Below, piece after piece: positions 53,658 through 64,000 of a DNA stretch of 64,000 nt (within the stretch, counting starts at the first letter, position 1; every line of letters begins with the position of its first letter). The stretch is from an uncultured Lachnospiraceae bacterium (GTDB lineage: Bacteria > Bacillota > Clostridia > Lachnospirales > Lachnospiraceae), in assembly GCA_944381575.1 (NCBI GenBank), contig CALWLS010000008.1, positions 48,162 through 112,161 on the forward strand, in the 5' to 3' direction. The notes beneath the pieces are model-generated. The model ran no database searches. It saw only the letters and a program-made list of their open reading frames with translations, and was not told where the DNA came from. The position numbers were made by a program, and so were the translations under genes.

Positions 53658-54548
53658 ATGAGTTCAAAGGTTTATTTTTCAAGAGAGATCACGCCTGAAA
53701 AGGTAGTCGAGCTTTATCATAAGCTTAATATAAAACTGCCGGGCAGGGTTGCGGTAAAGGTGCATTCGGGAGAAAAAGGGAATCAGAACTTCCTGCATCC
53801 TGAGTTCTGGAAGCCTGTGGTGGACGAGGTAAACGGCACCATAGTAGAGTGCAATACAGCTTACGGTGACGCTTCCGGAGGGGTGCGCGATAATACGGAG
53901 GACCATCTTAAGCTTATTGAGGAACACGGATGGAACAAATATTTCAAGGTGGATCTGATGGATGCCGAAGGCCCTGATCTTATCTGGCCGATACCTGAAG
54001 GAAAGGTATTAAAGGAAAATCATTTAGGTAAGGATATAGCGGATTATGATTCGATGCTGGTGCTTGCTCATTTTAAAGGGCATCCTATGGGAGGCTACGG
54101 CGGAGCGTTAAAGCAGCTTTCCATCGGCTGCGCTTCCAGAGCGGGAAAAGCGCTGATTCATTCTGCCGGAGTGACGGACGACCGCTATGAGACATTGGAG
54201 AAGCATGCGGATAAGACGGCCTTCCCGGAGGCAATGGCAGATGCTGCAATGAGCGTGGCAAAGCATTTTGAGGGAAGGATAGCCTATATAAATGTTATGA
54301 AAAATCTTTCCGTGGACTGCGACTGCTGCATGGTGGCAGAGGATCCGTGCATGAAGGATATAGGCATACTTGCTTCCCTTGATCCCGTAGCCATAGACCA
54401 GGCCTGCATAGATCTTGTAATGAATTCGGATGATCCGGGCAGGGAGCATTTCATGGAGCGGATAAACAGCAGAAACGGAATACATACGATAGAGGCGGCT
54501 GCGGACCTCGGATACGGTACGCGCGAATATGAGCTTATAGAGATTTGA
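53658..54548 (+). CDS. DUF362 domain protein
   Basis: The 296-residue protein matches DUF362: VAVKVHSGEKGNQNFLHPEF, ECNTAYGDASGGVRDNTEDH, GHPMGGYGGALKQLSIGCAS and VDCDCCMVAEDPCMKDIG with ASLDPVAIDQA. The Cys cluster in the CDCC region may hold an Fe-S centre, but the usual ferredoxin-type CxxCxxC box is absent. Function is unknown; the family is linked to redox proteins. ATG 53658 follows AAGGAGG. It is the first gene of a TetR-controlled operon with a flavodoxin. Confidence 0.82.
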   Translation: MSSKVYFSREITPEKVVELYHKLNIKLPGRVAVKVHSGEKGNQNFLHPEFWKPVVDEVNGTIVECNTAYGDASGGVRDNTEDHLKLIEEHGWNKYFKVDLMDAEGPDLIWPIPEGKVLKENHLGKDIADYDSMLVLAHFKGHPMGGYGGALKQLSIGCASRAGKALIHSAGVTDDRYETLEKHADKTAFPEAMADAAMSVAKHFEGRIAYINVMKNLSVDCDCCMVAEDPCMKDIGILASLDPVAIDQACIDLVMNSDDPGREHFMERINSRNGIHTIEAAADLGYGTREYELIEI

Positions 54549-54575
54549 TATGGCTTAAAGGGAGGTGGATACGCC

Positions 54576-55043
54576 ATGAGGATTTTGACAGCGTATTTTT
54601 CAGGAAGCGGGATCACCGCTTCGGCCGCAAAAAAAGCGGCGTCGGCAGTGGGAGCGGATATATTTGAGATAAGGCCAAAGACGCCTTATACTTCCGCCGA
54701 CTTAAACTGGATGGATAAAAACAGCAGGACCACGATAGAGATGAATGACGAGGCATATCGTCCTGAAATGGCGGACGCTGCGCCGGATATGTCAGTTTAC
54801 GACGTCATACTGCTTGGATTTCCAATTTGGTGGTATGTCGAGCCGCGTATAATCGATACATTTTTAGACAGTGTAGATTTGAGCGGAAAAACAGTCATAC
54901 CTTTTGCAACTTCAGGGGGAAGCGGTATCGACAGGGCCTTAAAGAGGCTTAAGGGGCTTTATCCTGAGGCTGTATGGAAGGATGGCGGTCTCTTAAACGG
55001 ACGCGACCCTGCCGAATGGGCAAAAAAGGTCTGCATGGGATAA
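54576..55043 (+). CDS. Flavodoxin family protein
   Basis: The 155-residue protein starts with ILTAYFSGSGITASAAKKA, the FMN phosphate loop, and has FPIWWYVEPRIIDTFLDSVDLSGKTVIPFATSGGSGI, the flavin-sandwiching loops of the flavodoxin_4 group. Such proteins are electron carriers or quinone/NADPH-linked reductases. GGGAGGTGG precedes ATG 54576. It sits between DUF362 and TetR genes. Confidence 0.92.
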   Translation: MRILTAYFSGSGITASAAKKAASAVGADIFEIRPKTPYTSADLNWMDKNSRTTIEMNDEAYRPEMADAAPDMSVYDVILLGFPIWWYVEPRIIDTFLDSVDLSGKTVIPFATSGGSGIDRALKRLKGLYPEAVWKDGGLLNGRDPAEWAKKVCMG

Positions 55044-55051
55044 GGTGAGCC

Positions 55052-55696
55052 ATGCCAAGGTGTTCAGAGGAATTAACAAATTCACGCAGGGATGAGATCA
55101 TAAACGCCTGCGCGGCTCTGTATGAGAGCATGAGCTTTAAGGAGATAACCCTTAAGGAGATAGGAAAGATAACTTCATTTACCAGGACTTCTATATACAA
55201 TTACTTTCAGACAAAGGAGGAGATATTCTTAGCCCTCATGCAGAGAGAGTATGAGGAGTGGGTAACGGATATCTCAGCCATAATGAATGGAAATGAGATC
55301 ATGGACGTCGAGGCGTTTTCAGACGCCCTGGCGAGGACCCTTGAAAACAGAAAAAGGTTATTAAAGCTTATCTCCATGAATCTTTACGATATTGAGGCTG
55401 ATTCGAGCCTTGAGAGCCTGATCTCATTTAAAAGGGCTTACGGAAGCTCAATACTGGCGGTTTCCAACTGCCTGAGGAAGTTTTTCCCTAAAATGACTGA
55501 AGCAGAGATACAGAATTTTATCTACGCCTTTTTCCCGTTTATGTTCGGCATATATCCGTATACGGAGGCCACTGAAAAACAGAAAAAGGCCATGGACGAG
55601 GCCGGGGTGAATTACGTCTGCCTTACGGTCCATGACATATGCTTTCAGATGATATCAGGGCTCTTAAAGGGATCTGCCGCGGCGGTGCAGGATTAA
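55052..55696 (+). CDS. TetR family transcriptional regulator
   Basis: The 214-residue protein has an N-terminal TetR DNA-binding domain (SRRDEIINACAALYE, SFKEITLKEIGKITSFTRTSIYNYFQTKEEIF) and a variable helical ligand domain. The two palindromes at 53506 and 53543 in front of the operon are of TetR type and are probably its targets. The effector is unknown; oxidants, quinones or drugs are possible given the partners. It starts 8 bp after the flavodoxin. Confidence 0.92.
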   Translation: MPRCSEELTNSRRDEIINACAALYESMSFKEITLKEIGKITSFTRTSIYNYFQTKEEIFLALMQREYEEWVTDISAIMNGNEIMDVEAFSDALARTLENRKRLLKLISMNLYDIEADSSLESLISFKRAYGSSILAVSNCLRKFFPKMTEAEIQNFIYAFFPFMFGIYPYTEATEKQKKAMDEAGVNYVCLTVHDICFQMISGLLKGSAAAVQD

Positions 55697-55712
55697 ATGA
55701 AATGACCGGGCA

Positions 55713-55734
55713 CCATTTGGGCACCATTTATGCC
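55713..55734. repeat. Two tandem 11-bp copies (GGGCACCATTT)
   Basis: GGGCACCATTT occurs twice in direct succession about 105 bp from the tRNA-Ser gene. Its meaning is uncertain. Confidence 0.4.
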
Positions 55735-55793
55735 TGTTTAAGGCAAAAAAAAAAGGGATAAAAACGGACATAAAGAATCAGTGAAAAAACATG

Positions 55794-55831
55794 AAAAATC
55801 CGCGTAAAGCAAGGCTTTGCGCGGATTTTTG
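55794..55831. terminator. Bidirectional terminator between tetR and tRNA-Ser
   Basis: AAAAATCCGCG pairs with CGCGGATTTTT (11 bp), with a further AAAGC/GCTTT stem inside. T-runs exist on both strands. Confidence 0.9.
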
Positions 55832-55837
55832 TTTAAG

Positions 55838-55923
55838 CGGAGTGGGAGGGATTCGAACCCTCGTGGCGTTGCCGCCAAACTGATTTCGAGTCAGCCCCGT
55901 TATGACCACTTCGATACCACTCC
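55838..55923 (-). tRNA. tRNA-Ser(CGA)
   Basis: Read on the minus strand, GGAGTGG pairs with CCACTCC as the acceptor stem, followed by discriminator G. The anticodon arm is CTGA-CTCGAAA-TCAG with anticodon CGA, which reads the UCG serine codon. The long variable arm (GGCGGCAACGCC) and the T arm GAGGG-TTCGAAT-CCCTC are complete, as class II tRNA-Ser requires. No encoded CCA follows. Confidence 0.95.
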
Positions 55924-56002
55924 AAACTATGCAATTATTTCACACATTCGGTAAATTTGCAAGCACTTATTGTATTTACGGGCGTCAGTACGGGTGTCAG
56001 GC

Positions 56003-57451
56003 TCAAAGCCCCATTACCCTGATAAGCAGCACCCAGGACATCGAATAGTAGGTGACGACTGATATGAGGTCGCTGACTGTCGATATCAATGGTCCTGAAG
56101 CTACGGCAGGATCGATGTTTATCTTTTTGAATAGCATCGGTATCAGCGCGCCGACTGCCGCGGCTATGGTCATGGCGATCAGCAGGGAGGCGCCTACGCA
56201 GCCGGATATGGCAAAGGACATACCTGCGGCCTGGCCCTTTATCAGCATTATATACAGGCCGACTATAAGGGTGGAGCAGAGTCCCAGTATGAGACCGTTG
56301 CTGAAGCCGACCTTCATTTCCTTAAGCACATGCATGCTCTTTTGTTTTGCCGTAAGGTTTTCATCCATGAGGATACGTATGGTAACGGCAAGGGACTGGG
56401 TCCCGGAGTTTCCGGCCATGCCGAGTATCATGGACTGGAAGAACATTATGATCGTCAGCTGCGATATTACCTTTTCGAATACGCCAACTACCGAGGATAC
56501 TATGAGGGCCAGCAGCATAAGTACGGTAAGCCACGGAAGACGTTTCTTCATGGAGTCCTTTAATGGCTCCTCAAGCTCCTCCTCGGCTATGATACCTGCA
56601 AGTCGTGCATAGTCCTCTCCTAATTCCTCATCCACTACTTCGATGATGCTCTGGGAGGTGATAACGCCGAGCAGCATGTTGTTGTTATCAAGCACCGGGA
56701 TCAGGTCCTCGGAATAATCCTTAAGCTTTTCTATACAGTCATCTATCTCCTCGGTACCGTAAACATAGGGGTATGAGGTCATTATAAGCTCCTCCAAAGG
56801 AGTTGACTGCCTCGCTATTATGAGCTCCTTTAAGCCTATCGCTCCGCAGAATACGTCCTGATCGTCCAAAACGAAAAGGGTGGAGATGTTATCGTTTTCC
56901 GACGCCTGCTCTATAAGGGCGCTCATGGCTCCCTTTACCGTAAGGTTATCGTGTATGACTATATAGTTTGTGGTCATCTTTGAACCGATCTCATCCTCAT
57001 CAAAGGAGGCGAGGAGAGCCACATCGCGCCTGAAATCATCATCCACGAGATCCAGTATGAGCCCTCTTTTTGTACGGTCCAGCTCCCTCAGGATATCTAC
57101 AGCGATATCCGAGTCCATATGGCCTATTACATCGGCTGCTTTTTTTAAGTCCATCTCACCGAGATAGACAGCCGCTTCGTCCTCATCGGCATACCCAAAT
57201 ATATTTGAGAGTGTGTCCACATCCAGGACTCTGTAAACCTTTTTCCTGAGTGCCGGAGACAGCGGAAACAAAGCCTCGGCTATATCGTTGTCATGATAAT
57301 CGCTGAGCTTGTCTCTCAATACCTTTGGCGATGCATTGCTCTCGATGATACCGACGATCTCGGCAACGTAATCCGGCTTTTCAGCCGGCTCTGTATCATC
57401 TTTTACTGATTCCGTATCGGAGTTTTCAAAGATGTCTTCTCTTTCGTCCAT
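56003..57451 (-). CDS. mgtE: Magnesium transporter MgtE
   Basis: The 482-residue protein has an N-terminal cytosolic helical domain (to about 150), two CBS domains (about 150-280) and a C-terminal five-helix pore with FQSMILGMAGNSGTQSLAV, the MgtE signature, and a GALIPMLFKKINIDPAVASGP segment. It takes up Mg2+ and is gated by Mg2+ binding to the cytosolic domains. The start is ATG 57451; an upstream in-frame ATG has no ribosome site. A structured leader precedes it. Confidence 0.95.
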   Translation of the reverse strand: MDEREDIFENSDTESVKDDTEPAEKPDYVAEIVGIIESNASPKVLRDKLSDYHDNDIAEALFPLSPALRKKVYRVLDVDTLSNIFGYADEDEAAVYLGEMDLKKAADVIGHMDSDIAVDILRELDRTKRGLILDLVDDDFRRDVALLASFDEDEIGSKMTTNYIVIHDNLTVKGAMSALIEQASENDNISTLFVLDDQDVFCGAIGLKELIIARQSTPLEELIMTSYPYVYGTEEIDDCIEKLKDYSEDLIPVLDNNNMLLGVITSQSIIEVVDEELGEDYARLAGIIAEEELEEPLKDSMKKRLPWLTVLMLLALIVSSVVGVFEKVISQLTIIMFFQSMILGMAGNSGTQSLAVTIRILMDENLTAKQKSMHVLKEMKVGFSNGLILGLCSTLIVGLYIMLIKGQAAGMSFAISGCVGASLLIAMTIAAAVGALIPMLFKKINIDPAVASGPLISTVSDLISVVTYYSMSWVLLIRVMGL

Positions 57452-57545
57452 ATCCGTGATCCTTTCTACATCGAAATAAAAAATCCATGCAGCACAAGCG
57501 GATATCACCGATGATATGAAGTTGTTTTTGCTCCTGAGAAATTAA

Positions 57546-57657
57546 AAGCCGGTACGGGCTTCCGGAAATAAAAACAGGTAACATAAGCACGGTGCATATC
57601 CGGTTGTTAAATTGTACTTTCGACTATGACCGTCGCCTGCGTCCACTTATGTTCACC
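57546..57657 (-). ncRNA. Structured leader of mgtE, not M-box
   Basis: In the 330-bp gap before mgtE, arms 57577-57587 (GGTAACATAAG) and 57646-57657 (CTTATGTTCACC) form an 11-bp stem with one bulge, enclosing 58 nt that contain a CGAC/GTCG hairpin. Downstream on the minus strand, AAGCC/GGCTT (57546-57561) is followed by TTTTAATTT and could act as an attenuator. I see no M-box core. The rest of the gap is AT-rich and empty of genes. Confidence 0.4.
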
Positions 57658-57781
57658 CGCCTTTGTAATTGATATTTCAAGAAATGATTTTCAAACAACT
57701 TTAAGAATAAACTTTCATTTTGCAAATTTCAAGCAGTTAAACGTAAAATGTAAAAGAATTTATCATAAGCATCGTGTAAAG

Positions 57782-58057
57782 TCACCGGTCCGAATGTCCG
57801 GCAGCTACTGCGGCGGCCTCAACGAACCACTTGCTGCCTTCGTTAAAGAGATAGGATGTGCGGCTGCCGATGGAAACGGTATAGCGTATCCCTCCGCCGG
57901 AAACATTTCCTGACGCCGCACGGCATTTGTACAAAACTCTGTCTATGGTAAATATCCTGCCGTTTTCCCAGCGTATGCACCGCGGGTGTACGGTGCCGTC
58001 AGCGTCGACATCGAGGTTGACGGAAACATAGGCCTTCCGGTAGTGCTTATCTGACAT
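57782..58057 (-). CDS. 91-aa protein linked to Y-family polymerases, unknown function
   Basis: The 91-residue protein (MSDKHYRKAYVSVNLDVDAD...) is a small beta-rich protein of a family that I know to lie beside Y-family polymerase genes in Clostridia. ENGRIFTIDRVLYKCRAAS and IRYTVSIGSRTSYLFNEG are its core. A similar task is performed in other phyla by DUF6504-type proteins, which may be distant analogues. ATG 58057 follows AGGAGG; the longer upstream frame lacks one. It diverges from the XRE-led cassette and its promoter overlaps the SOS-like box. Confidence 0.65.
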   Translation of the reverse strand: MSDKHYRKAYVSVNLDVDADGTVHPRCIRWENGRIFTIDRVLYKCRAASGNVSGGGIRYTVSIGSRTSYLFNEGSKWFVEAAAVAAGHSDR

Positions 58058-58121
58058 GTATGCCTCCTGTGTGAAATAAAAGTAAGCTGAAAATGTAATA
58101 AAAATAAAATCAAAAACGACA

Positions 58122-58150
58122 TTGCGGTACAGTATTTCGTGTGATATCAT
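58122..58150 (+). promoter_or_regulatory. Candidate promoter of the XRE-ImmA-polymerase operon
   Basis: TTGCGG at 58122-58127, 17 bp, TATCAT at 58145-58150. The spacer holds TTTCGTGT, the same half-site as the nearby operator. A TATATA at 58226 is an alternative -10. Confidence 0.4.
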
Positions 58151-58183
58151 GAAATACGAACAAAATTTCATGCCGATAAACGC

Positions 58184-58212
58184 ATGATAACACGAACGTG
58201 TTTTCGTGTCAA
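58184..58212 (-). promoter_or_regulatory. Promoter of the 91-aa gene
   Basis: On the minus strand TTGACA (58212-58207), exactly 17 bp, TATCAT (58189-58184). It is one of the best promoters in the window, and its whole spacer is the operator palindrome. Confidence 0.7.
58190..58209. promoter_or_regulatory. SOS-like (DinR/LexA) box or XRE operator
   Basis: ACACGAA (58190-58196) and TTCGTGT (58203-58209) form an inverted repeat with a 6-bp spacer. CGAACGTGTTTTCG at 58193-58206 matches 13 of 14 positions of the Bacillus SOS consensus CGAACRNRYGTTYG. Binding would block the minus-strand promoter. Confidence 0.6.
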
Positions 58213-58274
58213 TGATCTGCCGGGATATATAAGGCGGGATATCCGCCGTAATGTATTTGTTAAAGAGGTACTAC

Positions 58275-58694
58275 ATGATATTTAAAGACAGGCTTAAAGA
58301 GAAGCGAACAGAGGCCGGGCTGACTCAGGCCGAGCTTGCAGGTCTTGCAGGAGTGACGGCGCGGACGATACAGAACTACGAACTCGGAAGCCGCAGGCCG
58401 TCTAATATGGAAACGATACAGCGTATAGCTGACGCGTTGAAAACAACTCCGGCCTATCTTTTAGGCAGCAGCGGAGCCTATGTGGTCGAGGCCGGCATAA
58501 GAGGCGGACAGTCGGCGGCAAGGGACATAGACGAGCTTGTAAGTGAGGTGACGGGGCTGTTTGCCGGCGGCAAGCTGAGCGATGAGGCCCTTGACGGAGC
58601 CATGCGGGCCCTTAACGAGGCCTACTGGATAGCCCGGGATAAGAATAAAAAATATGCGTCAAAGGGATCGGAAAATGATAAGGCCGGCAGCTAA
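58275..58694 (+). CDS. XRE family transcriptional regulator
   Basis: The 139-residue protein has a classical N-terminal helix-turn-helix (FKDRLKEKRTEAGLTQAELA, GVTARTIQNYELGSRRPS) followed by a helical C-terminal part. ATG 58275 follows GAGG; an ATG at 58251 lacks a site. The neighbour is an ImmA-type protease. In ICEBs1 and Deinococcus, such proteases cleave their XRE partner (ImmR, DdrO) after DNA damage, so this is likely to be the protease target and the operon repressor. Confidence 0.9.
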   Translation: MIFKDRLKEKRTEAGLTQAELAGLAGVTARTIQNYELGSRRPSNMETIQRIADALKTTPAYLLGSSGAYVVEAGIRGGQSAARDIDELVSEVTGLFAGGKLSDEALDGAMRALNEAYWIARDKNKKYASKGSENDKAGS

Positions 58695-58748
58695 GGGCCA
58701 GGGAACGGAGCGGAAAGAGTCCGGTTTATTTTTTACGGAGGAGGTCTT

Positions 58749-59258
58749 ATGAATTCTGAAAGACTTTCTGCCATAGGCAGCGGTCTTGTAAAACGATATG
58801 GCACAAGGGATCCCTTTATTATTGCGAAAGAGCTGGGGATAGAGGTCCTGTTCTGCGACGGCTTCGGCCCGTTAAAGGGTATGTATCGCGTGATAAAGCG
58901 CAATCGTTTTATATTTATAAATAAGGACCTGGAGCCTAAGATGCAGAGGATAGTATGCGCCCATGAGATAGGGCATGACCGGCTGCACCGCAGCATTGCG
59001 GGAAGCGGCGTACTGCACGAGTTCATGCTGTATGATATGACGGCAAAGCCGGAGTATGAGGCCAATATAGTTGCGGCGGAGATACTCCTCGATACGGACG
59101 AGATACTTGAGTATATTTACAGGTATGGATATACCTCGGAGCAGATAGCAGGGAAGACGGATACGGATATCAATCTTGTGGCGCTTAAGATAGCCCATAT
59201 GGCTGAGACGGGATATGACCTGAGACCCGTGGAGCACAGGAGCGATTTTCTTAAGTAG
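58749..59258 (+). CDS. ImmA/IrrE-type metalloprotease
   Basis: The 169-residue protein has the M78 zinc-protease motif HEIGH at residues 72-76 and the following EANIVAAEILLD segment with the third ligand region. The family cleaves XRE repressors (ImmA-ImmR, IrrE-DdrO). No extra N-terminal or C-terminal domains are present. GGAGGAGG precedes ATG 58749. It lies 54 bp after the XRE gene. Confidence 0.92.
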   Translation: MNSERLSAIGSGLVKRYGTRDPFIIAKELGIEVLFCDGFGPLKGMYRVIKRNRFIFINKDLEPKMQRIVCAHEIGHDRLHRSIAGSGVLHEFMLYDMTAKPEYEANIVAAEILLDTDEILEYIYRYGYTSEQIAGKTDTDINLVALKIAHMAETGYDLRPVEHRSDFLK

Positions 59259-59292
59259 ATTATAAATTCAATTCGGAACTTTTGAAAAGCAC

Positions 59293-59793
59293 ATGGATAA
59301 AAAGGAAATATACAGATTTTTAGATGAGAAAAATATAAGCTATGAGGTGACAGAGCATAAGGCTGTCTATAACATGGCTGAGTTAAATGAAATAGACATG
59401 CCTTATCCGGATGCAGACGCCAAGAACATTTTTATAAGGGATGACAGGCATGAGGCCTACTATATGATAACCGTAAAGGGAGATAAGAGGGCGGATCTCA
59501 AGGCTTTCAGGCGGGCTAACGGCACAAGGGCTCTGAGCTTTGCTTCCGAATCAGAATTAAAAGATATATTAGATCTGATACCGGGATCCGTTACGCCGCT
59601 GGGACTTTTGAATGACAAAGAAAAAAAAGTCAGGCTGTATCTGGATAAGGAATTATCTGACGGGGCCGGGATCATTGGAGTACATCCAAATGATAACACG
59701 GCAACAGTCTGGCTTAAGGTCAATGACCTTGTGGAGATCATAAGGGAACATGGCAGTGAGGTGCATATAACGGATATAGCAGGGAGGATATGA
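59293..59793 (+). CDS. ProXp-ala/PrdX-like aminoacyl-tRNA deacylase
   Basis: The 166-residue protein is of the YbaK/ProRS INS editing superfamily. KNIFIRDDRHEAYYMI, LSFASESELKDIL, LIPGSVTPLGLLND and GVHPNDNTATVWLKV are the hallmarks of the ProXp-ala/PrdX branch, which removes alanine from tRNA-Pro. In this place it is wedged between an ImmA protease and a DNA polymerase, an unexpected partner. Its stop overlaps the polymerase start by 4 bp (ATGA). Confidence 0.88.
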   Translation: MDKKEIYRFLDEKNISYEVTEHKAVYNMAELNEIDMPYPDADAKNIFIRDDRHEAYYMITVKGDKRADLKAFRRANGTRALSFASESELKDILDLIPGSVTPLGLLNDKEKKVRLYLDKELSDGAGIIGVHPNDNTATVWLKVNDLVEIIREHGSEVHITDIAGRI

Positions 59794-61298
59794 AACAGCG
59801 TACGTATATAGCCATAGATCTTAAGAGCTTTTATGCATCGGTAGAGTGCAGGGACAGGGGGCTTGATCCTCTGGATACCAATCTTGTGGTGGCTGATGAG
59901 AGCCGCACGGATAAGACGATATGCCTTGCAGTGACTCCGCCGCTTAAAAGTTACGGCATATCGGGTCGGGGAAGGCTGTTTGAGATAAAGCAGCGCGTAA
60001 AGGAGGCGAACGCCGGAAGAAGGCACGATGCGCCTGGACATAAGCTTACGGGAGCATCCTGTTCAATGACTGAACTGAAAAACGACCCCTGCCTTGCGAT
60101 AGATTTCATAACGGCAAGGCCGCGCATGGCACGCTACGTGGAATACAGCACACGCATATACGGCATATATATGAGGTATGCGGCACCTGAGGATATCATA
60201 GTTTACTCCATAGACGAGGTATTTATGGACGTGACGGATTACCTTGGCATATACAGGCTCTCAGCCCGTGACCTGACAATGAAGATAATACTTGAAGTCC
60301 TAAGGGAGACCGGGATCACGGCGACGGCAGGAATAGGCACCAACCTGTATCTTTGCAAGATCGCCATGGACATAATGGCAAAGCATATACCGGCTGACGA
60401 AAACGGAGTACGCATAGCCGAGCTTGATGAGATGAGTTATCGCAGGGAACTGTGGCATCACCAGCCGCTTACGGATTTCTGGAGGATAGGGAGTGGCTAC
60501 GCTAAAAGGCTCGAGGAAAACGGAATGTTCACCATGGGGGATGTGGCCAGATGCTCAGTTGATAATGAGGACATCCTGTATAAGCTGTTTGGTAAAAACG
60601 CCGAGCTGCTGATAGATCATGCCTGGGGCTGGGAACCGTGTACCATTGTGGATGTTAAACAGTACAGGCCGGCAAACAACAGCCTTTGTTCCGGACAGGT
60701 GCTGCATGAACCATACGACGCTGAAAAAGCCGGAATAGTTATCAGGGAGATGGCGGATTCGCTCTCCATGGATCTTGTAAGGAAAGGGCTTGTAACGGAT
60801 CAGATAGTGATAACGATAGGCTATGATATAGAAAACATCAAGGATCCTGAAAGGAGACGGAGATATCACGGCAGCATAGTTAGGGACGGTTACGGAAGAC
60901 TGATACCAAAGCATTCCCACGGCAGCGTCAGGCTTGGAAGGCATACATCCTCCTCAAGGATGATGATCAATGAGGCGCATAAGCTTTTCATGAAGATAGT
61001 AAACCAGGATCTATTGATCAGAAGGATGAATATAACGGCGGAGCATGTTATACCTGAGGAAAAGGCGAGGGCGCCTTACGATATGTATGAGCAGATGGAT
61101 ATCTTTACAGATTACGAGAAACTTGAAAGGGAGAGGAAAAGTCAGGAAGCCGAGCTGGAGAGAGAAAAAAGGCTGCAGAGGGCAGTGATAGACATAAAGG
61201 GAAGATACGGAAAAAATGCTGTGCTTAAAGGTCTTAACCTTGAAGAAGGGGCAACGGCAAGGGACAGGAACGCACAGATAGGAGGCCACAAAGCTTAA
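59790..61298 (+). CDS. Y-family DNA polymerase (UvrX/UmuC-like)
   Basis: The 502-residue protein is a translesion polymerase. The first metal site is in AIDLKSFYASVE with Asp10; the second is Asp142-Glu143 in YSIDEVFMDV. It has a little-finger domain (about 290-410), then a long charged coiled coil and the C-terminal KNAVLKGLNLEEGATARDRN tail typical of Firmicute UvrX-type enzymes. It lacks a recognisable beta-clamp peptide that I can see with confidence. The YolD-like gene follows at the stop (1-bp overlap), as in uvrX-yolD loci. Confidence 0.93.
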   Translation: MKQRTYIAIDLKSFYASVECRDRGLDPLDTNLVVADESRTDKTICLAVTPPLKSYGISGRGRLFEIKQRVKEANAGRRHDAPGHKLTGASCSMTELKNDPCLAIDFITARPRMARYVEYSTRIYGIYMRYAAPEDIIVYSIDEVFMDVTDYLGIYRLSARDLTMKIILEVLRETGITATAGIGTNLYLCKIAMDIMAKHIPADENGVRIAELDEMSYRRELWHHQPLTDFWRIGSGYAKRLEENGMFTMGDVARCSVDNEDILYKLFGKNAELLIDHAWGWEPCTIVDVKQYRPANNSLCSGQVLHEPYDAEKAGIVIREMADSLSMDLVRKGLVTDQIVITIGYDIENIKDPERRRRYHGSIVRDGYGRLIPKHSHGSVRLGRHTSSSRMMINEAHKLFMKIVNQDLLIRRMNITAEHVIPEEKARAPYDMYEQMDIFTDYEKLERERKSQEAELEREKRLQRAVIDIKGRYGKNAVLKGLNLEEGATARDRNAQIGGHKA

Positions 61299-61720
61299 TG
61301 AGATCAGAAGACAGCTATGATGACATAATAAACCTTCCGCATCATATATCATTAAAGAGGCCTCAGATGCCGATGCATGACAGGGCCGCGCAGTTTTCGC
61401 CATTCGCAGCGCTTACCGGATATGATGAGGCCATAAAAGAGGAGGGAAGGCTCACTTCAGGAAGGATAGAACTGGGAGAATACGAAACTGAGCTGTTAGA
61501 CAGGAGCTTAAGAGATATCCTCGAGCATATTGATGAAAGGCCTTATATAAGCGTCATATATTTTGAACCGGACGAAAGAAAGTCAGGAGGAGCTTACATG
61601 GAGAAATCCGGAAGGCTGAAACGGATAGATGAGTATGAGAGGAAATTATATTTCACCGATGGTACGGGCGTTGATATGGATAGTGTGATCGAAATAAACC
61701 AGGACCTCATACGGATATGA
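61298..61720 (+). CDS. YolD-like protein
   Basis: The 140-residue protein matches the YolD-like family: YDDIINLPHHISLKRPQMPM, DRAAQFSPFAALTGYDEAI and a C-terminal beta part (ISVIYFEPDERKSGGAYMEK). YolD proteins are thought to assist Y-family polymerases in Gram-positives, similar to UmuD. It shares its start with the polymerase stop. Its last 14 bp overlap the converging YbaK gene. Confidence 0.88.
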   Translation: MRSEDSYDDIINLPHHISLKRPQMPMHDRAAQFSPFAALTGYDEAIKEEGRLTSGRIELGEYETELLDRSLRDILEHIDERPYISVIYFEPDERKSGGAYMEKSGRLKRIDEYERKLYFTDGTGVDMDSVIEINQDLIRI

Positions 61721-62201
61721 GGTCGGCAAATGAGGCATGTATATAATCCGCTAAGGAAGCGGCGTTAAGTATCACCTGTACTCCTCGCTGTCCTGCGCTT
61801 ACGCTGATCTCATCAGCATTCAGGGCAGTTTCGTGGATATATGTCGGGAAAAGCTTCTTCATGCCTATGGGAGAACAGCCGCCGCGTATATAGCCTGTGA
61901 CGGAGATAAGATCCTTCATAGGTATCATTTCGGCCTTTTTATTTCCGGAAACTCTGGCAGCTTTTTTCAGATCGACTTCATAATCAACGGGAATAACGCA
62001 TACAAAATAACCGGCCTTATCACCGTGCAGCACGAGGGTCTTGAATACTGTAGCATGGTCGAGTCCGAGGATATTGGCGGCATGGGTGCCTGAGAGGTCG
62101 TTTTCATCGACTTCATATTCAAGATGTCTGTAGTTTATGCCGGCCTTATCCAGCAGGCGCATGACGTTTGTCTTTGTTTCTTTTTCCTTATTTTTTGACA
62201 T
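61707..62201 (-). CDS. ybaK: Cys-tRNA(Pro)/Cys-tRNA(Cys) deacylase YbaK
   Basis: The 164-residue protein matches YbaK/EbsC: LDKAGINYRHLEYEVDE, LGLDHATVFKTLVLHGDK with the catalytic lysine region (FKTLV), and TGYIRGGCSPIGMKK. It clears mischarged Cys-tRNA(Pro). Its end overlaps the YolD gene by 14 bp in a convergent layout. It is the second INS-type deacylase in 3 kb. Confidence 0.92.
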   Translation of the reverse strand: MSKNKEKETKTNVMRLLDKAGINYRHLEYEVDENDLSGTHAANILGLDHATVFKTLVLHGDKAGYFVCVIPVDYEVDLKKAARVSGNKKAEMIPMKDLISVTGYIRGGCSPIGMKKLFPTYIHETALNADEISVSAGQRGVQVILNAASLADYIHASFADLISV

Positions 62202-62321
62202 GAAATTTATTTATCCAAAAATGTTCAGCTTGTTATATATTTTTATCAGGCATAAGTATATAATAAAAAGCTCAAAGAGATAAATGTATTTATTTTAGTA
62301 CACTGTGCTCAGGAGGGCGTC

Positions 62322-63929
62322 ATGAAATCTGATTTAGGAAATGTTATGAACCAGGAGCAGCTTAAGGAAAAACGTAATCAGTCAAATGAGAAAAAAGTGT
62401 GTGCTGAAAAAGGCCCGGTAACGGATGAACTGATAGAGAGGATGAACAGGTGGTGGCGCGCGGCAAACTATCTGTCGGCAGGCCAGCTGTATCTGCTGGA
62501 CAACTCTCTGTTAAAAGAACCGCTCACGATGGACATGATAAAGAAAAAGATCGTAGGACATTGGGGCACGGTGCCGGGACAAAACTTTGTTTTTGTACAT
62601 CTTAACAGGGTGATAAAGAGATACGATCTGGACCTGATACTTTTATCAGGGCCCGGACACGGAGGGAATTTCCTGATAGCCAACGAATATCTGGACGGTT
62701 CCTATAGTGAGATATATCCAAATGTTTCCCAGGATATCAAGGGGATGAAAAAGCTGTTTAAGCAGTTTTCATTTCCAGGCGGGGTGCCGTCCCACTGCGC
62801 TCCCGAAACGCCTGGCTCCATTAACGAGGGCGGCGAGCTTGGCTACAGCATAGCCCATGCCTTTGGAGCTGTATTTGATAACCCTGAGCTTATAGCCGCT
62901 GTAGTTGTAGGAGACGGAGAGGCCGAGACGGGCCCGTTAGCGACCTCCTGGCACAGCAATAAGTTCCTTAACCCGGTGACGGACGGAGCCGTGCTCCCTA
63001 TCCTGCACCTTAATGGCTATAAGATAGCAAACCCTACGATATTTGCTCGGATGTCCAGAGAAGAGATAACTGATTTCTTCCACGGATGCGGCTGGGAGCC
63101 TTATTTTGTAGAGGGTAATGAGCCGCTTGCCATGCACAGGCTTATGGCGGAGACCTTGGATAAAGTTATTGAAGAGATACAGGAGATACAGGAAAATGCC
63201 AGAAAGAACAATGATACAAAAAGGCCGAGATGGCCTATGATAATACTCCGCACTCCAAAGGGCTGGACAGCGCCGAAGATAGTCGACGGGCAGAGGATAG
63301 AGGACAATTTCCTTGCCCATCAGGTACCGATAGCCATGGAGGATGATCATAACCTTAAGCTTTTGGAGGAGTGGCTTAGGAGCTATCATCCGGAAGAGCT
63401 TTTTGATGATGAAGGCAAACTGTTTAAAGACATCGCGGAGCTTGCGCCGGAGGGTCACAAGAGGATAGGCCTGAACCCTCATGGCAATGGCGGAAAACTC
63501 TTAAAAGAGCTTAAGATGCCGGATTACCGGGAATACGGAATAGACGTAAAAGGACATGGGGAGATAGACGCCCAGGATATGTCAAGGCTCGGAGAGTTTG
63601 TAAGGGATATAATCAGGCTTAATGAAGATAACAGGAATTTCAGGGTATTCGGGCCGGATGAGACAAATTCCAACAGGCTGAACGCTGTTTTTGATGTCAC
63701 GGACAGAGTATGGAACCTTGAAAGATATGATACGGATGATCATCTTGCGCCTTACGGCAGGGTAATGGATTCAATGCTGTCGGAACATATGTGCGAGGGA
63801 TGGCTGGAAGGGTATCTGCTCACAGGAAGGCATGGATTCTTTGCCACATATGAAGCCTTTGCAAGGATAATAGATTCCATGGCAGCACAGCATGCAAAAT
63901 GGCTTAAAGTCTGCCGTGATCTGCCATGA
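62322..63929 (+). CDS. xfp: Xylulose-5-phosphate/fructose-6-phosphate phosphoketolase, truncated
   Basis: The 535-residue frame is a clear phosphoketolase: [55 protein letters not shown] and [19 protein letters not shown] with the thiamine-diphosphate motif. It splits xylulose-5-P or fructose-6-P to acetyl phosphate. Full enzymes are about 790-800 aa. Here the frame stops at TGA right after WLKVCRDLP, where relatives read a Trp and go on for some 260 residues. What follows is unrelated. The catalytic C-terminal domains are therefore missing in this frame. ATG 62322 follows AGGAGG. Confidence 0.85.
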
Positions 63930-64000
63930 AGCGTTTTGTCAAGTGCTTTTTTGAGTTATTGACGCAAATTCTTGTGAAAGTGCGAAAGTGCAAAGTGCAA
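63930..64000. other. Unrelated sequence after the broken phosphoketolase
   Basis: The 71 bp up to the window end do not encode the expected phosphoketolase continuation in any frame I can see. They contain a bulged inverted repeat (TTTGTCAA, 63935-63942, with TTGACGCAAA, 63959-63968) and three AAAGTGC copies at 63977, 63985 and 63992. This fits the left end of an inserted element, but no transposase is visible. Confidence 0.45.

Follow-up and report, generated by a model that had tools for sequence, protein, structure and literature searches.

The stretch analysed here, hereafter the window, comprises 64,000 nucleotides from an uncultured Lachnospiraceae bacterium (contig CALWLS010000008.1, positions 48,162 to 112,161). 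Between positions 57782 and 61720 it encodes an XRE-type repressor, an ImmA-type M78 metalloprotease, a ProXp-ala-like tRNA deacylase, a Y-family polymerase and a YolD-like protein, with a small gene, div91, running in the opposite direction. We consider it likely that this locus is a self-contained derepression operon of the ImmR/ImmA type for translesion synthesis, and such control of translesion synthesis, which recurs in relatives, is probably functional. Indeed, the XRE/ImmA switch on translesion synthesis proposed in an initial annotation of the locus is borne out in silico by the linkage of the pair to polymerases of two families, by operator-like sites over divergent promoters and by covariation of these sites with the recognition helix of the repressor. 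The gene order and overlaps of that annotation were also confirmed: all six genes are open at the coordinates given in Table 1, and the overlaps of 4 bp and 1 bp are present.

Recurrence of the XRE-ImmA-polymerase linkage

The exact five-gene order was seen in the window genome only, but a four-gene core, div91-XRE-ImmA-polymerase, recurs in relatives, so that the order put forward initially stands for its core and not for the complete run. Without ProXp, the core was found in 2 of the 24 other genomes of the genus and also far outside the genus; the genus carriers of XRE-ImmA-polymerase with a divergent div91 are the window genome, G016 and G019. The 19.5 kb of G019 that were read gave no match to YolD. 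The polymerase was matched in 22 of the 25 genus genomes (E <= 0.001), in G008 and G013 weakly and via another polymerase, and ImmA was matched in 15 of the 25. There is a second layout, in which XRE, ImmA and a div91 homologue stand divergent from the other polymerase, of 411-417 amino acids (aa) (G008, G009, G013 and G020), and there are XRE-ImmA pairs with no recognised polymerase in the stretch read (G001, G010, G014 and G018). The two layouts, with two families of Y-polymerase, share the window-type XRE-ImmA pair.

A wider set was obtained with five window-type ImmA queries, which gave 88 relatives in genomes; the best 80 were kept and, together with 7 viral contigs, make up 87 loci (4 of the 80 genome loci are apparently contigs of G016, G019, G011 and G005 from the genus set). 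XRE, div91, Y-polymerase, ProXp and YbaK were sought in these loci with home-made profiles. XRE was found in 82 of the 87 and div91 in 51. Of the 80 genome loci, 52 had a Y-polymerase where one was expected (22 downstream, 30 divergent); 40 of these polymerases are 350 aa or longer, 5 run into the edge of the locus and 7 are short fragments. Grouping the 87 loci by ImmA identity (90%) gave 58 clusters, of which 36 had a polymerase. The reciprocal search with div91 gave 54 matches, with a member in 45 of 299 genomes of the family, and a Y-polymerase lay within 1.5 kb of the div91 member in 22 of the 29 other loci fetched (30 were fetched, one being the window's own). Counted among the 22 is L265, whose polymerase is a 69-aa fragment alone.

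Some loci of these sets have peculiarities of their own. Genes that by eye are restriction-modification-like occupy the usual place of the polymerase in L115 (7061-12507). In L262, the polymerase is separated from the div91 homologue by a 94-aa open reading frame (ORF) that resembles the DNA-binding domain of LexA minus its protease part, and the spacing between the two genes is the same in L264. L129 (2772-3766, minus strand) has div91 followed by a second M78-family gene, the larger one with 245 aa, and by a zinc-ribbon-like gene of 88 aa, and ORFs similar to this pair follow div91 in several related loci.

Operator-like sites over divergent promoters

The gap between div91 and XRE contains two operator-like sites, O2 and O3, over back-to-back promoters (Table 1), and repeated dyads, typically CACGAACnnnnTTTCGTG and 18 or 19 bp long depending on the locus, are found upstream of XRE across loci. 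A promoter scan listed 14 sites in this region, where 8.4 were expected, and the div91 promoter ranked first among them. Exact matches of the pattern ACGAACNNNNTTTCRTG occur twice in the whole genome (2.0 Mb), at O2 and O3, and the two sites with one mismatch both lie within ORFs. Since the pattern was derived from these sites and from related loci, the genome scan tests their locality and not their existence; the regulon thus appears to be local to this locus. A genome-wide regulon was considered and rejected, as 48 sites with at most 2 mismatches were found versus 122 for a reversed-pattern control.

The covariation between operator and recognition helix is a more independent test than the locality of exact matches. 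CACGAAC half-sites follow the helix: in 89 loci with enough upstream DNA, and with at least three half-sites as the criterion, they were present in 51 of 51 loci with a RT[IVL]Q[NH]YE[LM]G-type helix versus 3 of 38 loci with other helices. Counted by distinct helix, the ratios are 29/29 versus 3/32 (Fisher, 2.7e-14), values that lose weight because the helix class and the threshold were set after a first look at the covariation and because the loci are related, not independent. One of the three half-site exceptions has a helix nearly identical to that of the main class.

Table 1. Features of the div91-XRE-ImmA-polymerase locus (window coordinates)
Feature	Position	Strand or place	Remarks
div91; small protein with all-beta fold, probable standalone accessory of Y-polymerases (ImuB-C type)	57782..58057	-	
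XRE promoter, TTGCGG-N17-TATCAT	58122..58150	+	read by eye; weak -35, absent from promoter-scan list
Operator-like site O2, TACGAACAAAATTTCATG	58155..58172	just after XRE -10	exact pattern match 58156-58172
div91 promoter, TTGACA-N17-TATCAT, TG before -10	58184..58212	-	11/12 bases
Operator-like site O3, CACGAACGTGTTTTCGTG, palindrome	58191..58208	in div91 promoter spacer	exact match 58192-58208
XRE repressor, 139 aa	58275..58694	+	HTH_3 3.6e-14 (Pfam)
ImmA-type M78 metalloprotease, HEIGH motif, 169 aa	58749..59258	+	Peptidase_M78 4.3e-17 (Pfam)
ProXp-ala-like tRNA deacylase, variable-slot occupant	59293..59793	+	tRNA_edit 2.9e-26 (Pfam)
Y-family polymerase, UvrX/YqjW type	59790..61298	+	IMS 2.9e-22 and IMS_C (Pfam); 4-bp overlap with deacylase stop
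YolD-like small protein	61298..61720	+	14-sequence alignment; 1-bp overlap with polymerase stop

Repressor and protease

The XRE start at 58275 is preferred by the homologues over a longer ORF from 58251. Sequence matches of XRE in the PDB were ImmR (7t8i, 4.2e-4) and DdrO (6e-4), and its helix-turn-helix (HTH) part matched the structure of DdrO (6rnz) with an E value of 1.5e-3 at best; the C-terminus does not superpose on DdrO (full-length root mean square deviation 10.8-12.9, template modelling score 0.42-0.47). The ImmA family profile matched IrrE (3dte, 6.3e-5), CapP (0.001) and an IrrE orthologue (0.0041), and M78 is the sole Pfam domain above cut-off in the protein. Because ImmA is a short, single-domain protein, the C-terminus of the repressor cannot be superposed on that of DdrO and exact operators are found at one place, the ImmR/ImmA pair is the nearer model, and the initial description of the switch as IrrE/DdrO-like is not supported.

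Residues F96, G98 and G99 of XRE are invariant in 54 aligned homologues and are located in the model at the turn that precedes the final long helix, the C-terminal part of the model having lower confidence. Cleavage would most likely take place near this conserved FAGG turn. Two more M78 genes of the window genome are distant and have XRE neighbours (L092 and L093); an antirepressor-like ORF lies near the L092 copy.

Polymerase, YolD-like protein and div91

At its end, the polymerase has a motif similar to the N-terminus of the RecA encoded in the same genome, and an RNAQIGGHKA tail, which is kept in the 16 homologues listed. The protein encoded after it had no match in Pfam, NCBIfam or PHROGs. 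It is called YolD-like because of its place after the polymerase, its N-terminal arm, which is conserved in 14 aligned proteins, and comparison with known YolD sequences. A RecA-N-terminus-like motif has been described for YqjW and UvrX (PMC6511836).

The div91 model (predicted local distance difference test, 87.6) is a beta barrel with seven strands that had no PDB match at E <= 0.001. Div91, like the YolD-like protein, had no library match above a cut-off, and Pfam gave none for 31 members of its family; sub-threshold matches to MIT_C (16.4 bits versus a cut-off of 25 in the window protein) and SepQ were taken as chance. The family profile matched DUF6504, which we take to be ImuB-C, at 52% probability with 17 chosen rows and at 19.5% with all 30, the subset having been picked after the first result. 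With the subset the score was 30.0, whereas none of 40 column-shuffled controls scored above 16.6. A search with DUF6504 gave no match in the window genome, and of 14 control genomes Caulobacter alone matched. ImuB-C has been reported as a beta barrel without PDB relatives (PMC12926913), and standalone ImuB-C as coupled to YqjH polymerases, mostly of Clostridia (PMC6511836). Div91 is probably a standalone accessory of the ImuB-C type, an identity that the DUF6504 profile supports and does not prove.

Proposed mechanism

In undamaged cells, XRE bound to O2 and O3 would keep both promoters low, and div91 in one direction and XRE-ImmA-ProXp-polymerase-YolD in the other would be nearly silent. DNA damage would expose single-stranded DNA and thereby activate ImmA, which would cut XRE in its C-terminal part, most likely near FAGG. 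Both promoters would then open, and the polymerase and YolD, together with RecA and perhaps the ImuB-C-like div91, would copy past lesions until newly made XRE brought silence back; the deacylase would be co-transcribed and stand outside the mechanism. IrrE/PprI is activated by single-stranded DNA (PMC10904395), and TnSmu1 is activated by damage, with cleavage of ImmR by ImmA having been posited (PMC10233336). Since the operators are defined and the region of cleavage is predicted, the switch is directly testable.

Apart from the late choice of helix class mentioned above, several findings weigh against this mechanism. Within the genus, the polymerase mostly stands without an adjoining XRE-ImmA pair, 35 of the 87 loci have no polymerase, and 11 of the 22 polymerase-less clusters have flanks of 2.5 kb or more on either side. 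The 7 short fragments among the 52 polymerases are perhaps broken genes, and a polymerase was found in none of the 7 viral-collection loci, several of which are truncated. In addition, L097 of the genus lacks the F of the FAGG motif and has LLAGG, and ImmA has no recognised domain for sensing single-stranded DNA. It might be argued that XRE-ImmA is a toxin-antitoxin-like or stress pair for another signal (redox, metal or peptide) and that the polymerase is induced by a cue other than damage, since such pairs are sometimes classed as toxin-antitoxin systems, a view that PMC10233336 argues against for TnSmu1, and since the inducing signal cannot be read from sequence. We regard this as unlikely, because the neighbours of the pair, two kinds of Y-polymerase with their small companion proteins, suggest a response to lesions.

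LexA and mobility

The window genome, which is 97.4% complete, gave no match to LexA at E <= 0.001. Among the 25 genomes of this genus of gut bacteria, 9 had any match and 2 had one over cut-off. In 39 cassette genomes, which were our choice from the 80, LexA was matched in 32 and over cut-off in 19, and the cassette as a general LexA substitute was rejected on these counts. Sub-threshold LexA-like genes lie near the same polymerase in G015 (L048, 0.2 kb downstream) and G004 (L050, 1.4 kb away), as if one repressor type had been swapped for another.

The switch had been called chromosomal in the initial annotation. The 9.5 kb read (54500-64000) contain no recognised mobile gene, but relatives are found on mobile DNA and the term is not retained. 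An integrase and a relaxase are encoded in L142 and MobC in L109, and three viral-collection loci carry div91-XRE-ImmA. L129, from Roseburia inulinivorans, is 96-97% identical in DNA sequence, over 1.5-6.6 kb, to loci in records of Faecalibacterium, Gemmiger, Blautia, Brotaphodocola and Pseudoflavonifractor; from these near-identical loci we conclude that the L129 version of the cassette moves between genera. The same relatives could be taken to mean that the window locus is the relic of a mobile element, in which XRE-ImmA formerly ran excision or transfer, the polymerase operon being cargo left behind that no longer serves in the response to damage. This is improbable in our view, since all genes are intact and both operators exact here, the 9.5 kb read are free of recognised mobile genes and the polymerase linkage is seen in 36 of 58 clusters.

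The deacylase and the variable slot

The deacylase resembles a characterised ProXp-ala from end to end, its closest solved relative being that of C. crescentus (5vxb; residues 4-163, 1.9e-21), and deacylation of Ala-tRNA(Pro) is predicted. However, the tie between error-prone copying and Ala-tRNA(Pro) proofreading that had been drawn initially is not supported. No deacylase lies between ImmA and the polymerase in G016 or G019, the ProXp and YbaK profiles had no match in the 87 ImmA loci, and none of 22 other deacylase loci (299 family genomes, E <= 1e-30) had XRE, ImmA or the polymerase within about 1.5 kb. The nearest deacylases (60-62%), in G004 and G008, are away from the cassette. ProXp as a conserved part was therefore rejected, the search having covered 25 genomes of the genus, 299 of the family and the 87 loci. 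Editing-domain matches in the genus included none in a frame of more than 395 aa, so that no editing borne by a synthetase was seen, although no search was aimed at the synthetase.

As read from sequence, the gap between ImmA and the polymerase is a variable slot. Among the 22 downstream loci, 7 have a gap of more than 1 kb, 5 one of 307-414 bp and 10 one of 237 bp or less, and the slot holds a macro-domain gene and a CAT-family gene in L109, unknown or zeta-toxin-like kinase genes in L110, an ABC ATPase, read as ABC-F, in L116 and a flavodoxin in L119; in L142, a methyladenine glycosylase is placed between the polymerase and YolD. Group II introns, considered as an explanation of these gaps, were not seen in those read, although no RNA-family search was made. 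The GC content of the deacylase gene is 42.7%, versus 48.6% for ImmA and 48.8% for the polymerase; that of YolD is also low (44.2%). ProXp is best read as the slot occupant of this strain, a passenger, and the link to tRNA looks strain-specific. A partial exception is G020 (L094:5168-7083), with a ProXp-like gene directly after the other, 417-aa polymerase and beside XRE-ImmA-div91, a placement that is a probable coincidence and that weighs against the slot-occupant reading. That the deacylase is a functional part of the cassette, with damage-induced Ala-tRNA(Pro) editing protecting translation during error-prone copying, would agree with this gene in G020, with the stop-start overlap with the polymerase and with the window deacylase matching its own copy alone in the genome (although this has two more tRNA_edit proteins), but is very unlikely given its absence from the related cassettes, the 22 deacylase loci elsewhere and the unrelated genes in the slot.

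A YbaK-type Cys-tRNA(Pro) deacylase gene (61707-62201, minus strand) runs towards the YolD-like gene, so that the ends of the two overlap by 14 bp; it encodes the second tRNA_edit protein at the locus (NCBIfam 2.3e-58, over cut-off). A terminator-like hairpin is located at 61703-61724. In L033 (G019), a gene named by eye as a Dtd-like D-aminoacyl-tRNA deacylase is located two genes past the polymerase. A clustering of tRNA deacylases near polymerases (ProXp and YbaK here, Dtd-like in G019, ProXp in G020) was set aside as probable coincidence because the ProXp and YbaK profiles were unmatched in the 87 loci, where Dtd was not searched for.

As a tentative extension, with the balance somewhat against it, Clostridia may share a class of mobile, LexA-independent "mini-SOS" operons, in which a conserved two-way promoter freed by a damage-sensing ImmA would express ImuB-C one way and Y-polymerase, YolD and a swappable payload the other way, the payload being deployed on DNA damage only. 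Such payloads might differ between loci, with tRNA proofreading in the window and restriction genes, a base-excision glycosylase or an ABC-F-like ATPase in others. A repressor and protease of a kind known chiefly from mobile elements, if coupled to a mutagenic polymerase and moving between genera, would amount to a portable means of controlling the supply of mutations.

Comparison with known systems

We recognised no open-access paper on an XRE/ImmA switch over a Y-polymerase operon, subscription papers being mostly outside the search; the words "protease" and "HTH" had no match in PMC6511836, nor had "metallo" and "Xre" in PMC12926913. CapH/CapP of the cyclic oligonucleotide-based antiphage signalling system also combines an M78 protease with an XRE repressor and gave weak profile and fold matches, but it controls immunity genes and CapP is longer (291-aa chain). 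IrrE(PprI)/DdrO of Deinococcus shares the M78 protease, the XRE repressor with a DdrO-like HTH and a presumed LexA-independent damage response. It differs in that the solved IrrE chain has 301 aa, compared with 169 aa and no extra domains beyond M78 in ImmA, which also lacks the GAF-like domain described in PMC10904395; moreover, the repressor C-termini cannot be superposed, and one operator region here stands against a multi-gene regulon.

The YqjW/UvrX-YolD-RecA mutasome has in common with the window locus the RecA-like motif, the conserved tail and the overlapping YolD-like gene (YolD by alignment), whereas control is described as by LexA there and would be by XRE/ImmA here, with an ImuB-C-like gene in addition (PMC6511836, PMC12926913). 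Like standalone ImuB-C with YqjH, the div91 family is found beside Y-polymerases of about 411-440 aa and is modelled as a barrel without PDB relatives, but in the window layout div91 stands with a UvrX-type polymerase and YolD. ImmR/ImmA of ICEBs1 and TnSmu1 has the same ImmR-like HTH, adjoining single-domain M78 protease and divergent regulated promoters, and relatives of the window locus are mobile as well; here, too, the XRE gene is followed directly by a single-domain M78 gene. Unlike ImmR/ImmA, the window locus would control a Y-polymerase operon and not excision or transfer, and it has no recognised mobile gene in the 9.5 kb read. The locus is thus a new combination built of known parts.

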